Assembly (NCBI GenBank): GCA_029567325.1 | Contig: JAKQLF010000327.1 | Coordinates: 1 to 49,349 of the forward strand | Reading direction: 5' to 3' | Length of the DNA stretch: 49,349 nt | Origin: Bacteroidota bacterium | Lineage (GTDB): Bacteria > Bacteroidota > Bacteroidia > Chitinophagales > Saprospiraceae | Shown: piece by piece, positions 44,241 through 47,485 of the stretch | How the letters are laid out: the number at the start of each line of letters is the position of its first letter | Numbering within the stretch: the first letter of the stretch is position 1 | Made by a program: the position numbers and the translations under genes | The notes under the pieces: generated by a model | Databases searched by the model: none | What the model was told of the DNA's origin: nothing | What the model saw: only the letters and a program-made list of their open reading frames with translations

Positions 44241-44927
44241 TTAAGGTCTAAATATTATGGACTGTATGGTCGATAATACGATGTATATCAAAACTGATAA
44301 AGAAAGTGCATATTTATTATCTATTAAAAGTAAGATGATGAATATGAGAAACATTGCTATCTGAAAATGGTTGTTGACCCATTTTTTATCTAAGCCCTTG
44401 AGTGAAAACATCTTCAGGTTGCTCAACATCATAAATGCAAAAAACAATGGAACAATCCAATACACTACCCAATTTTGCAAATTATTTACGATAAATGCTT
44501 TGTTGTAGTGATAGGAAAGAAATATTCCAATCAAAAATAAAGCAGTTGCTGGTGTTGGAAGTCCTGAGAAATATTTGGATGAAGGGAGTAAATTAAACTT
44601 TGCCAACCTCAGAGCACTTGCCGATATCAAAAACATGGGAGGTAAATATGCCATCCAATGACTTGGATCTGGTGCGAGTTTCCAATACAAATATGCTGGT
44701 GCAATACCAAAACTCGTTAAATCTGCCAAGGAATCCAGTTCTACACCCATCTCTGATTGAGCTTTTAGAATTCTGGCCGTCATCCCGTCCAAAACGTCAA
44801 AAAGTAAACAGAATATGATCAAAATGCTACTCTTATAAAAGTCAGCTACTAATATCGCTGCAAAACCAAAGCACAAATTGAGCAAGGTTATGGCACTTGG
44901 TATTCTGTCACGCTTTCTTTTCTTCAT
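44241..44927 (-). CDS. pssA: CDP-diacylglycerol-serine O-phosphatidyltransferase
   Basis: Inner-membrane enzyme making phosphatidylserine from CDP-diacylglycerol and serine, the route to phosphatidylethanolamine. The CDP-alcohol phosphotransferase motif D-G-x2-A-R-x8-G-x3-D-x3-D is intact (DGMTARILKAQSEMGVELDSLAD). Several hydrophobic helices follow. 228 residues with a basic start MKKRKRDRIPSAITLLNLCFG, typical of PssA in this phylum. A -7 box TACATTTG lies only 5 bases before the ATG. Confidence 0.93.
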   Translation of the reverse strand: MKKRKRDRIPSAITLLNLCFGFAAILVADFYKSSILIIFCLLFDVLDGMTARILKAQSEMGVELDSLADLTSFGIAPAYLYWKLAPDPSHWMAYLPPMFLISASALRLAKFNLLPSSKYFSGLPTPATALFLIGIFLSYHYNKAFIVNNLQNWVVYWIVPLFFAFMMLSNLKMFSLKGLDKKWVNNHFQIAMFLIFIILLLIDNKYALSLSVLIYIVLSTIQSIIFRP

Positions 44928-44932
44928 CGGCG

Positions 44933-44940
44933 CAAATGTA
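44933..44940 (-). promoter_or_regulatory. -7 box TACATTTG five bases before the pssA start
   Basis: Exact TAnnTTTG match with the same 5-base distance to ATG as in the emfourin-like operon, which would give a leaderless transcript. No -33 TTG at the proper distance. Confidence 0.35.
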
Positions 44941-45381
44941 AAAAATGTTTTTGAACTAAGATGTTACTATTTCCTGTAAGTGAGGCTGTTTTCTATAAGA
45001 TGGGATAATTCTTCCTTAACATTACTAATGAAACCGTATTAGTGAGAACACATTGTCTTATTTATGATGTATACTTCTTTAATTTCTTCCTGCCCTTCAA
45101 TTACTGGTGCTAAACTTCAATCTTTGAAGATTTCTTTATATGTTTAATGTTCCAAAATCTTAAAAAATCTCTCTTTTGGCTGGATATAAAATATTATAAT
45201 CAGCCAAAGCTATATAAAAACGCTATCTTTGGCTAGATATAAAAAACTATAATTAGCCAAAAATGATAATAAAACTATATATTTGGCTAGATATAGAATA
45301 TTATAATCAGCCAAAATCATGTAATTTTGATGTTTGGGAGATTGCAATTTTAATCATTTGTTGTATTAAATATGGTTAATA
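44941..45381. other. Gap with palindrome array upstream of the ATPase gene
   Basis: AT-rich. 45175-45315 holds three 34-bp palindromes (separate entry). The remainder shows no gene; promoter of the ATPase gene is expected between 45316 and 45381 but I cannot fix it. Confidence 0.5.
45175..45315. repeat. Array of three 34-bp imperfect palindromes (53-54 bp period)
   Basis: Copies at 45175-45208, 45228-45261 and 45282-45315. Each begins TTTGGCT(G/A)GATATA and ends (T/A)ATAAT(C/T)AGCCAAA, with perfect 7-bp outer arms TTTGGCT/AGCCAAA and weaker inner symmetry. The 19-20-base spacers are unrelated to each other. The centre-to-centre distance is close to five DNA turns. 66 bases before the ATPase start codon. 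Confidence 0.85.
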
Positions 45382-46812
45382 ATGGAACTGATAGGCAGAG
45401 AGGACGAGCAAAAGACATTTAAACATTGCTTGCATGCTAGTGAATCTAAGTTGGTTGCCGTTTATGGAAGAAGACGTATAGGCAAAACCTTTTTGATCAG
45501 GAAGTATTTCGGAAACAAAATCTTTTTTGAAGTTGCTGGGCTTTATAATGGTGAAATGAAAGACCAATTGCTTCATTTTACTAAAACACTGGCCAAGTCA
45601 GGATATTATCCTGCGGCTGTTGCATCACCAAATAACTGGTTTGCGGCCTTTGATCTTCTGGCATTACACATAGATGCCCAAAAAGACAACAAGAAGAAAG
45701 TTATTTTCATAGATGAATTGCCTTGGTTTGACACTCCAAGGTCAAAGTTCTTGACTGCCTTTGAAAGTTTTTGGAATAGTTACTGTTCGAAAAGAAACGA
45801 TCTATTGGTAGTCATATGTGGATCAGCGGCATCATGGATGGTAAATAAAATACTAAAAAACAAAGGCGGTCTCCACAATCGTGTCTCTGAGAAGATACAA
45901 TTGAAAACTTTTACATTGTATGAAACTGAAAAGTTCCTTTTAGAAAAAAATGTAAAGTGGAGCAAGTACGATATCGCCCAATTGTATTTTACAACAGGAG
46001 GAGTACCTTTTTACTTAGATGCGGTAAGGAAGGATGAAAGCGTGGTTCAATTTGTTGATAGGGCATGTTTCACTCCAAATGGTGTACTATTTAATGAATT
46101 TGACGAATTATATGAATCCTTGTTTTATAAAAGTCAACAACACCAGGAAATTGTCAAACAGCTTTCGGCAACACAGCAAGGTTATACCAGAGATGAATTG
46201 ATTGCAAAAACAAAAATGAAATCTGGTGGTACTTTTTCAAAACTCATTGATGAATTGGAGCAATCTGGTTTTGTGCAGAAAGTAAGCCCTTACACTGCCA
46301 ATGTAAATGGAGTTTTATATAAACTAATAGATAATTTTAGTATTTTCTATTTCAAATTTATGTCCAATGGTAAAAATCGATTGAAAGATAGTTGGGCCAA
46401 ACAAATAAAAGGCCAATCTTGGGTCAGTTGGTCTGGTTTCGCTTTTGAAAGGCTTTGTTTTGCACACATCAAACAAATAAAAAATGCATTGGGTCTATCA
46501 GTGATTGAATCAGAAATTTTTACTTGGAAAGCAAAAGATGAGGAAAGAGGAGCACAAATCGATATGCTCATAGAACGATCAGATCGAGTCATCAATGTTT
46601 GTGAAATTAAATTTGCATCAAGTGAATTTAGAATAGATAAGAACTATGCAATGGTTCTAAGGCATAAAATGGACCTATTTGCCCAACTGCCAGAAAATAA
46701 GAAGAAAAACCTATTTCTCACGATGATCACCAGTTTTGGCACTGAGGAAAATATGTATGCTAAGGAATTGGTGCGCGCTGAAGTGAAATTGGATGATCTT
46801 TTTACAAAGTAA
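45382..46812 (+). CDS. AAA-type ATPase with C-terminal DUF234 nuclease-like domain
   Basis: A 476-residue member of the archaeal-ATPase/DUF234 family, common in archaea and Bacteroidota and often in mobile regions. Walker A YGRRRIGKT at 28-36, Walker B VIFIDE at 107-112, sensor-like VVICGSAASWM, a winged-helix segment (TRDELIAKTKMKSGGTFSKL), then DUF234 with a PD-(D/E)xK-like pattern: GAQIDMLIER at about 392-401 and NVCEIKFA about 10 residues later (Asp … Glu-x-Lys). No antitoxin or partner gene is adjacent. Function is not known for any close relative that I can name. Confidence 0.85.
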   Translation: MELIGREDEQKTFKHCLHASESKLVAVYGRRRIGKTFLIRKYFGNKIFFEVAGLYNGEMKDQLLHFTKTLAKSGYYPAAVASPNNWFAAFDLLALHIDAQKDNKKKVIFIDELPWFDTPRSKFLTAFESFWNSYCSKRNDLLVVICGSAASWMVNKILKNKGGLHNRVSEKIQLKTFTLYETEKFLLEKNVKWSKYDIAQLYFTTGGVPFYLDAVRKDESVVQFVDRACFTPNGVLFNEFDELYESLFYKSQQHQEIVKQLSATQQGYTRDELIAKTKMKSGGTFSKLIDELEQSGFVQKVSPYTANVNGVLYKLIDNFSIFYFKFMSNGKNRLKDSWAKQIKGQSWVSWSGFAFERLCFAHIKQIKNALGLSVIESEIFTWKAKDEERGAQIDMLIERSDRVINVCEIKFASSEFRIDKNYAMVLRHKMDLFAQLPENKKKNLFLTMITSFGTEENMYAKELVRAEVKLDDLFTK

Positions 46813-47083
46813 AACCGAGTCTACAAAAGTAATCAATCTTGAATGTTAGAAATGTGGTTAATTCAAAATCTTATTAGCTGGAATTTTGTAGTTATATGAA
46901 TGAATAAACACATGACCACAAAAACATTCCCTTTTTTAGTTTGAAAAACTTAAAAATGATGCAAACCAAAGGTAGAATTATTGAAACTGACCAAATTATT
47001 GCAATGATGACCTGCACGAAGAACAAAAATGACGTACCTTTGCGTTTCTATTTAAAGAAGAAGATTTTCTTCAATGCAAAGAG
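46813..47083. other. Gap between the ATPase gene and ccmE
   Basis: No clear gene. A 43-codon frame (46956-47087) is not convincing. A -7 box lies at 47035-47042. Confidence 0.45.
47035..47042 (+). promoter_or_regulatory. -7 box TACCTTTG before ccmE
   Basis: Exact TAnnTTTG match, 50 bases before ATG 47093. No -33 TTG at 19-20 bases. Confidence 0.4.
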
Positions 47084-47092
47084 TTGATAAAA

Positions 47093-47485
47093 ATGAAAAA
47101 AACATTCATTATACCTTTGATCATGATCGTTGCAGCCATCGTGATTATTACCTCAGCCACCAAAGACGTAAGTACATATGGTGATTTTTCAACAGCTACA
47201 GAATCTGGTGACAGACTTAAAATTGTTGGCAAACTGGCCAAGGATAAACCTATGGTGTATGATGCAGAGAACACACCCAATGAGTTTCAATTTTACCTGG
47301 TTGACGACAAAGGAGCAGAGAGAAAGGTATTGTTGAAAAAACCAAAACCTCAAGATTTTGAAAGATCGGAGCAAATCGTATTGACCGGAAAGATGTCTGG
47401 TGATGCTTTTGTTGCGGATGAAATTTTGATGAAATGCCCCTCTAAATACAAGAACGAAGAAATTTCTATTAAATCAGAGTCTTAA
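47093..47485 (+). CDS. ccmE: Cytochrome c maturation heme chaperone CcmE, Cys-type variant
   Basis: Periplasmic heme chaperone with one N-terminal anchor (KKTFIIPLIMIVAAIVIITSA) and an OB-fold domain (EFQFYLVDDKGAERKVLL, VLTGKMSGDAFVADEILMKC). In standard CcmE a His in HxxxY binds heme covalently; here the position is Cys (MKCPSKY, CxxxY), the variant known from archaea and Desulfovibrio. Start at ATG 47093; a TTG at 47084 in frame is less likely. The ccmF-type gene follows 10 bases after its stop. About 130 residues, normal. Confidence 0.9.
   Translation: MKKTFIIPLIMIVAAIVIITSATKDVSTYGDFSTATESGDRLKIVGKLAKDKPMVYDAENTPNEFQFYLVDDKGAERKVLLKKPKPQDFERSEQIVLTGKMSGDAFVADEILMKCPSKYKNEEISIKSES

Follow-up and report, generated by a model that had tools for sequence, protein, structure and literature searches.

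Introduction

PDC-S27 is a candidate single-gene phage defence in PADLOC, in which an ATPase is fused to a PD-(D/E)xK-type domain; in the parts of PMC12988326 covered here PDCs are called unvalidated, and the archaeal and bacterial detections add up to 8,065 for PDC-S27 and 39,480 for PDC-S01. The main text of that paper has no occurrence of 'palindrom', and its passages covered here do not mention an array of own sites. The present work concerns one such gene and the palindrome array in front of it, in a 49,349-nucleotide stretch of a Saprospiraceae genome (assembly GCA_029567325.1, contig JAKQLF010000327.1, positions 1 to 49,349; this whole stretch is called the window). The encoded protein matches PDC-S27 over its full length and has the same fusion of ATPase and PD-(D/E)xK-type domain. 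As judged from covariation between protein residues and bases of the repeats, the ATPase very probably binds the array in front of its own gene as its cognate site. A literature search, which included the covered parts of PMC12988326 and PMC13356809 and left subscription journals and preprints mostly outside its scope, found neither such arrays nor such a code described. The gene family is already known as a candidate defence; its own-site array and residue-base code are apparently new, no description having been found.

Four other groups of proteins offer comparisons. ParA, a partition ATPase of the Walker type, has its separate partner in ParB, lacks a nuclease domain and binds inverted repeats at its partition promoter; we know of no family-wide residue-base code for it. 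Type Ia ParA of the F plasmid assembles cooperatively on its own partition promoter (PMC8465637, in the part covered). PDC-S27 would resemble it as an autorepressing DNA-binding ATPase and differs by its nuclease-like domain and its residue-base code. The anti-phage locus AbiE consists of two genes, one of which encodes a nucleotidyltransferase toxin, and the winged-helix protein of the locus, AbiEi, regulates its own promoter. AbiEi is described as a winged helix-turn-helix (wHTH) antitoxin (PMC3985639, in the part covered). What AbiE divides between two genes would be united in PDC-S27, where one protein is predicted reader, ATPase and nuclease-like domain.

The ORC/Cdc6 initiators (2qby, 1w5t and human ORC; ORC4 by profile) share the AAA+ plus winged-helix fold, and archaeal members bind inverted repeats, but PDC-S27 differs in its numerous paralogues, in carrying a nuclease-like domain at its C-terminus and in having its sites at its own promoters. 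The likeness observed is one of fold. The STAND/NLR ATPases (plant NRCs, CED-4, Avs3) have the same order of ATPase then winged helix and the character of an immune-type switch. In NLRs the winged helix is part of the switch, whereas in PDC-S27, as the covariation indicates, it would read DNA. By analogy, PDC-S27 is filed here as a protein that would work like an autorepressing DNA-binding ATPase and whose architecture resembles that of a STAND/ORC switch to which a nuclease-like tail has been added.

Results and discussion

The array and its repeating unit

An earlier interpretation made from the letters of the window, referred to here as the sequence-only reading, had reported three 34-bp palindromes of the form TTTGGCT-N20-AGCCAAA, starting 53 and 54 bp apart, before an ATPase gene (Table 1). 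They are exactly as described, and this pattern has no other exact match, either in the window or in the entire 5.8-Mb assembly. With up to three mismatches the window contains 11 matches, against a mean of 4.64 and a largest value of 9 in 100 shuffles.

Among 298 sampled genomes of the order, 55 gave a homologue match at E 1e-60. In 120 of 136 loci whose upstream sequence was long enough, the top-scoring inverted repeat of the 250 bp preceding the start codon outscored every one of its ten dinucleotide shuffles, and a score of at least 13 was reached upstream in 104 of 136 loci, downstream in 24 of 132 and in none of 136 coding stretches. A chance origin of the arrays was ruled out by these shuffle, coding and downstream controls. 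A 16-bp half-site matrix was then seeded with 14 half-sites and refined on the inverted-repeat arms with no gap imposed. It found half-sites in 116 of 137 loci, with a consensus of approximately TTATAA-n-T-n-GC-[C/T/G]-[A/G]-[A/T]-A-[A/T].

In 126 of the 141 neighbouring pairs of facing half-sites (L-R) the gap measures 17 or 18 bp, and back-to-back half-sites (R-L) stand 2-5 bp apart in 77 of 96; half-sites of the same orientation were direct neighbours in 23 pairs. The same-orientation pitch is 51-54 bp in 111 of 125 spacings (spacings of 40-66 bp were considered), so the helical phasing of about five turns that had been proposed for the window holds across the family. These gaps and this pitch define the unit as a palindrome of 49-50 bp with a period of about 53 bp. 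It can be calculated from the gaps that the evenly spaced position is base 12 of the half-site, which returns at intervals of about 26.5 bp. In the window the unit takes the form AGCCAAA-N19/20-TTTGGCT and is TTATA-like at its outer ends. Each 34-bp palindrome is a junction between two true units: the arms named by the sequence-only reading stand, its unit boundaries do not, and what it took for unrelated spacers are the 17-18-bp centres of the true unit.

The window array thus consists of two full units and a single half-site at each end. The half-site at 45301-45316 has no good R partner, a TTTGG at 45333-45337 being 2-3 bp off register. Four dyads exceed the threshold (the 99.5% point of 845 coding windows) in the whole window, three in the array and one at 2376 that is probably a chance match; the scan with the family matrix gave no scoring dyad 3' of the ATPase gene. 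Arrays before homologous genes, which the sequence-only reading had suggested looking for, are the rule: among the 211 homologue loci for which the upstream sequence was long enough, 175 have a dyad above threshold there. The arm letters differ from gene to gene and the geometry of the array is constant.

A residue-base code

Blind mutual information, calculated over 81 non-redundant loci, related 376 variable protein columns to 13 variable half-site positions. The winged helix at residues 251-315 accounts for 58 of the 376 columns, and it contains the five leading pairs and eight of the first nine (binomial P 2.5e-6). Ten of the top 20 pairs lie there, the remainder being scattered. The highest raw covariation value, between position 15 and F433 (Z 95), was not retained: position 15 hardly varies (A in 100% of the best sites after rounding), so that this value must depend on a handful of deviant sequences, and the pair vanished once only variable positions were used.

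In the training loci residue 281 goes with base 12: Ser with C in 19/19, Thr with C in 7/8, Asn with T in 21/23, Asp with G in 19/24 and Glu with G in 5/5 (pooled, Ser/Thr with C12 in 26/27 and Asp/Glu with G12 in 24/29). Base 9 is G with Arg287 (19/19) and A with Thr284 (15/18), and base 14 is A with Lys309 (47/47) and T with Arg309 (18/23). Such rules resemble ordinary protein-DNA chemistry.

The rules were fixed beforehand and then applied to held-out loci from further paralogues of ten high-copy genomes (which had also supplied training loci), from a phylum-wide sample and from viral contigs. Of 75 loci scored, 65 had a dyad above threshold and 61 were used, all below 75% identity to any training protein and with the duplicate L227 dropped. 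Residue 281 was outside the rules or unaligned in five of these, and base 12 was correct in 97 of the 112 half-sites of the other 56. Both arms were right in all 26 loci with Ser or Thr at 281 and in all five with Glu; for the other rules the corresponding counts were 21/23 (Arg287 with G), 6/7 (Thr284 with A), 32/32 (Lys309 with A) and 6/6 (Arg309 with T). Within the single genus g183, the nine Arg287 loci have G9 on both arms in eight cases and on one arm in one (L168), and loci with Gln, Asp or Lys at 287 have C on both arms in three cases and C/G in one.

Over 158 non-redundant loci, training loci included, the base-12 code holds in 257 of 298 half-sites; 2000 permutations averaged 96 and never exceeded 143. 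Pairs of nearest relatives, with identity computed without the winged helix, behave in the same way: among 23 pairs with different classes of residue 281 base 12 differs in 19, and among 85 pairs of one class it agrees in 73, the corresponding figures for Arg287 and G9 being 18/25 and 78/91. This covariation within the winged helix, seen in both the held-out and the permutation tests, indicates that the ATPase itself almost certainly binds its own array, a possibility that the sequence-only reading had listed.

If PDC-S27 does read its own array, each gene comes with a ready DNA ligand, a measurable promoter and residues to test. The code, taken from natural paralogues, predicts part of a new member's binding site from sequence.

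As a separate observation, half-site base 11 is A rather than C in a subgroup of loci (L211, L223, L228, L229, L235, L236, L245 and L246).

Paralogues in the same genome

The genome carries ten full-length homologues, one divergent member and one fragment. Inspection by eye showed an array of repeats upstream of each of the ten full-length copies and distinguished about eight arm types, among them TTTGGCG, CTCGCTCAAA and GGCGGAAT. Among pairs at 60-75% identity, a shared site was found in 0 of 11 within a genome and in 17.5% of 177 between genomes, and this within-genome separation of specificities is a trend that does not reach significance. Paralogues of one genome for the most part differ in specificity and would accordingly govern chiefly themselves, with cross-binding possible where arm letters are shared.

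The diversity of arms also bears on the idea that an unlinked regulator binds the array and that the ATPase is merely the gene regulated. Palindromes overlapping a promoter are typical operators, and orphan arrays exist, one of them (L299) before a different gene. Even so, this explanation is very improbable, as base choice follows residues 281, 284, 287 and 309 of the ATPase, both in held-out loci and between nearest relatives, and about eight arm types among ten copies would require several separate regulators. The sequence-only reading had named the operator of a regulator as one option: the operator part of it agrees with the promoter-like boxes described below, and the separate regulator is made very improbable by ATPase residues that track the bases.

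The ATPase

The gene product is a full-length PDC-S27 protein by PADLOC profile PDLC04984 (622 bits, E 2e-187, residues 2-474 of 476). It scores above the gathering cut-off for ATPase_2 (PF01637; 56.9 against 33.2 bits) and below it for both DUF4143 (PF13635; 24.8 against 28.1 bits) and DUF234 (PF03008; 17.8 against 22.5 bits), the label given by the sequence-only reading. The Walker motifs and the PD-(D/E)xK-like C-terminus that it had recognised are conserved in an alignment of 30 sequences: G29, R30-R32, G34 and K35 of Walker A, D111 and E112 of Walker B, and E408 and K410 of the D...ExK motif are invariant and D394 is nearly so. The gene has no obvious partner, as had also been noted, its neighbours encoding a CDP-alcohol phosphatidyltransferase and CcmE.

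An AlphaFold2 model was built from nine sequences (mean pLDDT 82.8). A wHTH fold sits exactly at the stretch picked out by covariation, with helices at 251-262, 270-277 and 283-294 and wing strands at 298-301 and 312-315. Position 283 opens the recognition helix, close to residues 281, 284 and 287, and the wing contains residues 309 and 314; by model and covariation together, the predicted specificity residues belong to the recognition helix and wing of a winged helix. Fold neighbours are 2qen (TM 0.51/0.66), STAND/NLR proteins, Avs3 among them, and ORC/Cdc6; some of these neighbours are bound to DNA. Sequence profiles match TnsC, 2qen and ORC4. By analogy with these STAND/ORC-like neighbours, the fold suggests that the ATPase may work by nucleotide-controlled assembly.

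Promoter-like boxes and proposed mechanism

TAnnTTTG is the Bacteroidota -7 consensus. Of 158 loci, 110 have a match in the 150 bp upstream, 18.2 being expected from base shuffles. Relative to the right arm of the last unit the boxes are found at -3 (37 cases), at -14 to -11 (30) and at -33/-32 (17); in other units there are 12 at -3 and two at -13. Position -3 is partly a product of the arm sequence itself. Boxes in the window lie at 45224, 45278 and 45322, and the last of these is probably the promoter.

The sites thus overlap a probable promoter, as judged by consensus, with the boxes in fixed register of the last unit. A bound protein would cover this promoter, and autorepression, with the array as its operator, is the simplest reading of such an arrangement.

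Tandem inverted repeats before a single gene could also be RNA hairpins, serving as an RNA antitoxin or a structured leader. Type III antitoxin RNAs have a superficially similar tandem-repeat layout, and the arrays seen by eye were all directly upstream. Arm mismatches of the types G-T and T-G (121) stand to A-C and C-A (86) in the same ratio as T-T (72) to A-A (51), however, so there is no sign of favoured G-U pairs. The promoter-like boxes lie inside the last unit, and Rfam gave only two matches over 44900-47100 (E 0.12 and 0.2), far under the gathering scores; one of these overlaps the array on the minus strand. With no G-U signature and no Rfam family the hairpin reading, which is extremely improbable, was set aside.

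Binding of the ATPase to its own array could proceed as follows. The winged helix (251-315) would enter the 16-bp half-sites with its recognition helix (281, 284 and 287) and wing (309). The half-sites alternate in orientation, one palindromic unit taking about 53 bp or five turns, and several protomers would line up cooperatively as a helically regular row along the array. This row would cover the promoter inside the last unit, and the gene would repress itself. Assembly and release would be controlled by the ATP/ADP state of the STAND/ORC-type module. When the cell is perturbed, for example by a phage, release or remodelling would raise expression and would also free or activate the C-terminal PD-(D/E)xK-like nuclease. 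Occupancy, repression, the ATP switch, nuclease activity and a role in defence are what we infer here; sequence statistics establish the conservation and geometry of the arrays, the residue-base code and the register of the boxes.

The array may also be more than an operator, namely a working platform on which the bound ATPase-nuclease is stored as a sensor, loss of or change in the array complex being what is sensed. The presence of several strictly phased units per gene, beyond the needs of simple repression, the STAND/NLR-like fold, and phased direct repeats before sister DUF4143 genes of this genome (see below) speak for this. The promoter register nevertheless fits an ordinary operator, and 48 of 136 loci have just one or two inverted repeats in 300 bp; a platform is considered unlikely.

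Several results weigh against autorepression through a cognate, gene-specific array. No dyad exceeds the threshold in 36 of 211 homologue loci; absence of arrays from homologues, which the sequence-only reading had said would refute it, is by this measure seen in a minority, and the check comes out mostly in favour. Distant plasmid, phage and archaeal homologues give a mixed picture, seven of the eight phage copies (L144-L151) falling below the dyad threshold, with palindromes visible in several. In the home genome seven of the ten full-length copies pass; L011, L012 and L014 have clear palindromes of divergent sequence or layout. The specificities are not all private, as the AGCCAAA arm core is common to L006, L008 (the window copy) and L014, and residues 281, 284 and 287 are identical in L006 and L008. 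The code itself is less regular for some residues, held-out Asp281 loci having G on both arms in 8/12 and T in three, and Asn281 loci having T on both arms in 9/13; moreover, 13 of the 61 held-out loci come from genus g183, which weakens the Ser/Thr count. The wing loop at 301-310, around residue 309, is modelled at lower confidence (pLDDT 67). The promoter-like boxes were assigned by consensus match, and that at 45322 comes after the half-site lacking a well-registered partner. Finally, a strict dyad scan of six genomes, with none found by the reversed-pattern control, gave 15 dyads in 11 array loci, of which four had no intact ATPase gene in the 3-6 kb read; this is not a rate for all arrays, because the strict pattern missed most known ones, including all of those in G266.

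Solo arrays and possible mobility

These four arrays bear on the other ground for refutation, the occurrence of arrays at unrelated genes, which is mostly not what was found: a single one precedes an unrelated gene. In that case (L299, G182:C1:3224293) an AGCCAAA-type dyad lies directly 5' of a secreted-protein gene that we take to be DUF1028-like. The array of G280:C32 precedes an apparent gene remnant and that of G041:C5 stands alone. In the home genome, a solo array (L284, G000:C269, about 2720-2920) has 198 bp at 84% to the array and flank of L009; no ATPase gene was present in the 6 kb read, and the adjoining gene is presumably htpG-like. The arrays without an ATPase look mostly like scars of lost genes, although movement of arrays is conceivable.

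A shortened PDC-S27 gene remnant (L286, G000:C319, 1-620) has arrays on both sides, the end of the remnant and the array being duplicated in tandem (203 bp at 89%).

The resemblance of L284 to L009 and the array-flanked remnant L286 would also suit a mobile unit made up of array and gene, in which the array forms the end and the nuclease is the mobilising enzyme. The copy number is high (ten full-length here, rising to 21 matches at E 1e-100 for G164), and a dyad lies 3' of the gene in 23 of 207 loci, a count that may include arrays of a neighbouring copy. At 29 ccmE loci from relatives (69 genomes with a match, this one included) the ATPase was absent from the stretch read, which only shows that it is not usually there. 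Most copies have an array on one side only, however, and the window has no downstream dyad; terminal repeats of a mobile element are not indicated by the 23 loci, and neither terminal repeats nor target duplications were identified. The promoter-register features would be superfluous to mobility. G176, the only same-genus genome listed, was unusable as a clean empty site, as its flanking genes are on different contigs. A mobile unit, which the sequence-only reading had also proposed, was not demonstrated and is quite improbable; nor was the array shown to be a site of cleavage, another of the options in that reading.

The sister family DUF4143

A further 12 genes of this genome match DUF4143 (PDC-S01), 11 of them scoring above the family cut-off. 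Direct repeats upstream exceeded all 100 shuffles in ten of the 12 genes (upstream stretches L302-L311) and were gene-specific, with lags of 31-33 bp in eight, 22 in one and 40 in one. Downstream of these genes, where no shuffles were applied, L309 scored 23. In a phylum sample direct repeats exceeded all 40 shuffles upstream in 8 of 29 DUF4143 loci and downstream in 4 of 29, so a generalisation to this family is only partial; the lags there were 22-23 or 32-33 only, equal to two or three DNA turns.

It may tentatively be proposed, although we hold it to be somewhat doubtful, that stand-alone PDC-S27 and DUF4143 (PDC-S01) ATPase-nucleases together make up a class of immune switches anchored on DNA. 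Each gene would have a helically phased array of its own, with palindromes every five turns in PDC-S27 and direct repeats every two or three turns before part of the DUF4143 genes. The winged helix of the encoded protein would read this array by a decodable code, and the array would be a structural part that holds the protein loaded and inactive, not merely an operator. Should the sister family behave like PDC-S27, many thousands of genes would fall under one principle.

Features of the window

Table 1. Positions of the repeats, the promoter-like box and the PDC-S27 gene in the window
Feature	Position	Strand	Basis or remark
Palindrome 1 of the sequence-only reading	45175..45208		R-L junction
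Palindrome 2 of the sequence-only reading	45228..45261		R-L junction
Palindrome 3 of the sequence-only reading	45282..45315		R-L junction
Half-site R TTATATCCAGCCAAAA	45174..45189	-	Family half-site matrix, score 17.1
Half-site L TTATAATCAGCCAAAG	45194..45209	+	Family half-site matrix, score 10.6
Half-site R TTATATCTAGCCAAAG	45227..45242	-	Family half-site matrix, score 11.4
Half-site L CTATAATTAGCCAAAA	45247..45262	+	Family half-site matrix, score 15.3
Half-site R CTATATCTAGCCAAAT	45281..45296	-	Family half-site matrix, score 15.4
Half-site L TTATAATCAGCCAAAA	45301..45316	+	Family half-site matrix, score 16.6
Full L-17-R dyad, 49 bp, family repeating unit	45194..45242		Matrix score 27.1
Full L-18-R dyad, 50 bp, family repeating unit	45247..45296		Score 35.7, top of the 49-kb window
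TAnnTTTG box	45322..45329	+	3' of last half-site; Bacteroidota -7-like; probable promoter
PDC-S27 ATPase gene, 476 aa	45382..46812	+	Open reading frame, profile searches
Walker A, residues 29-36 GRRRIGKT	45466..45489	+	Alignment of 30 sequences
Walker B, residues 107-112 VIFIDE	45700..45717	+	D111 and E112 invariant in 30 sequences
Winged helix, residues 251-315	46132..46326	+	AlphaFold2 model
Putative specificity residues S281, T284, K287, start of recognition helix	46222..46242	+	Covariation
Residue N309 of the wing, covarying with bases 14 and 16 of the half-site	46306..46308	+	Covariation
PD-(D/E)xK-like motif, residues 392-410 (D394, E408, K410)	46555..46611	+	Alignment

Repeats in two distant homologues

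The copy in phage WO of Wolbachia (L057/L146/L147) has GC-rich upstream repeats (CCGCGG). Its residues E281 and R309 match G12 and T14 on a single arm, the dyad being below threshold. On a plasmid of M. jannaschii (L056, about 1880-1925), AT-rich inverted repeats with a score of 11.5 stop 11 bp 5' of an ATPase_2-type start codon, a hint of the same habit in archaea.

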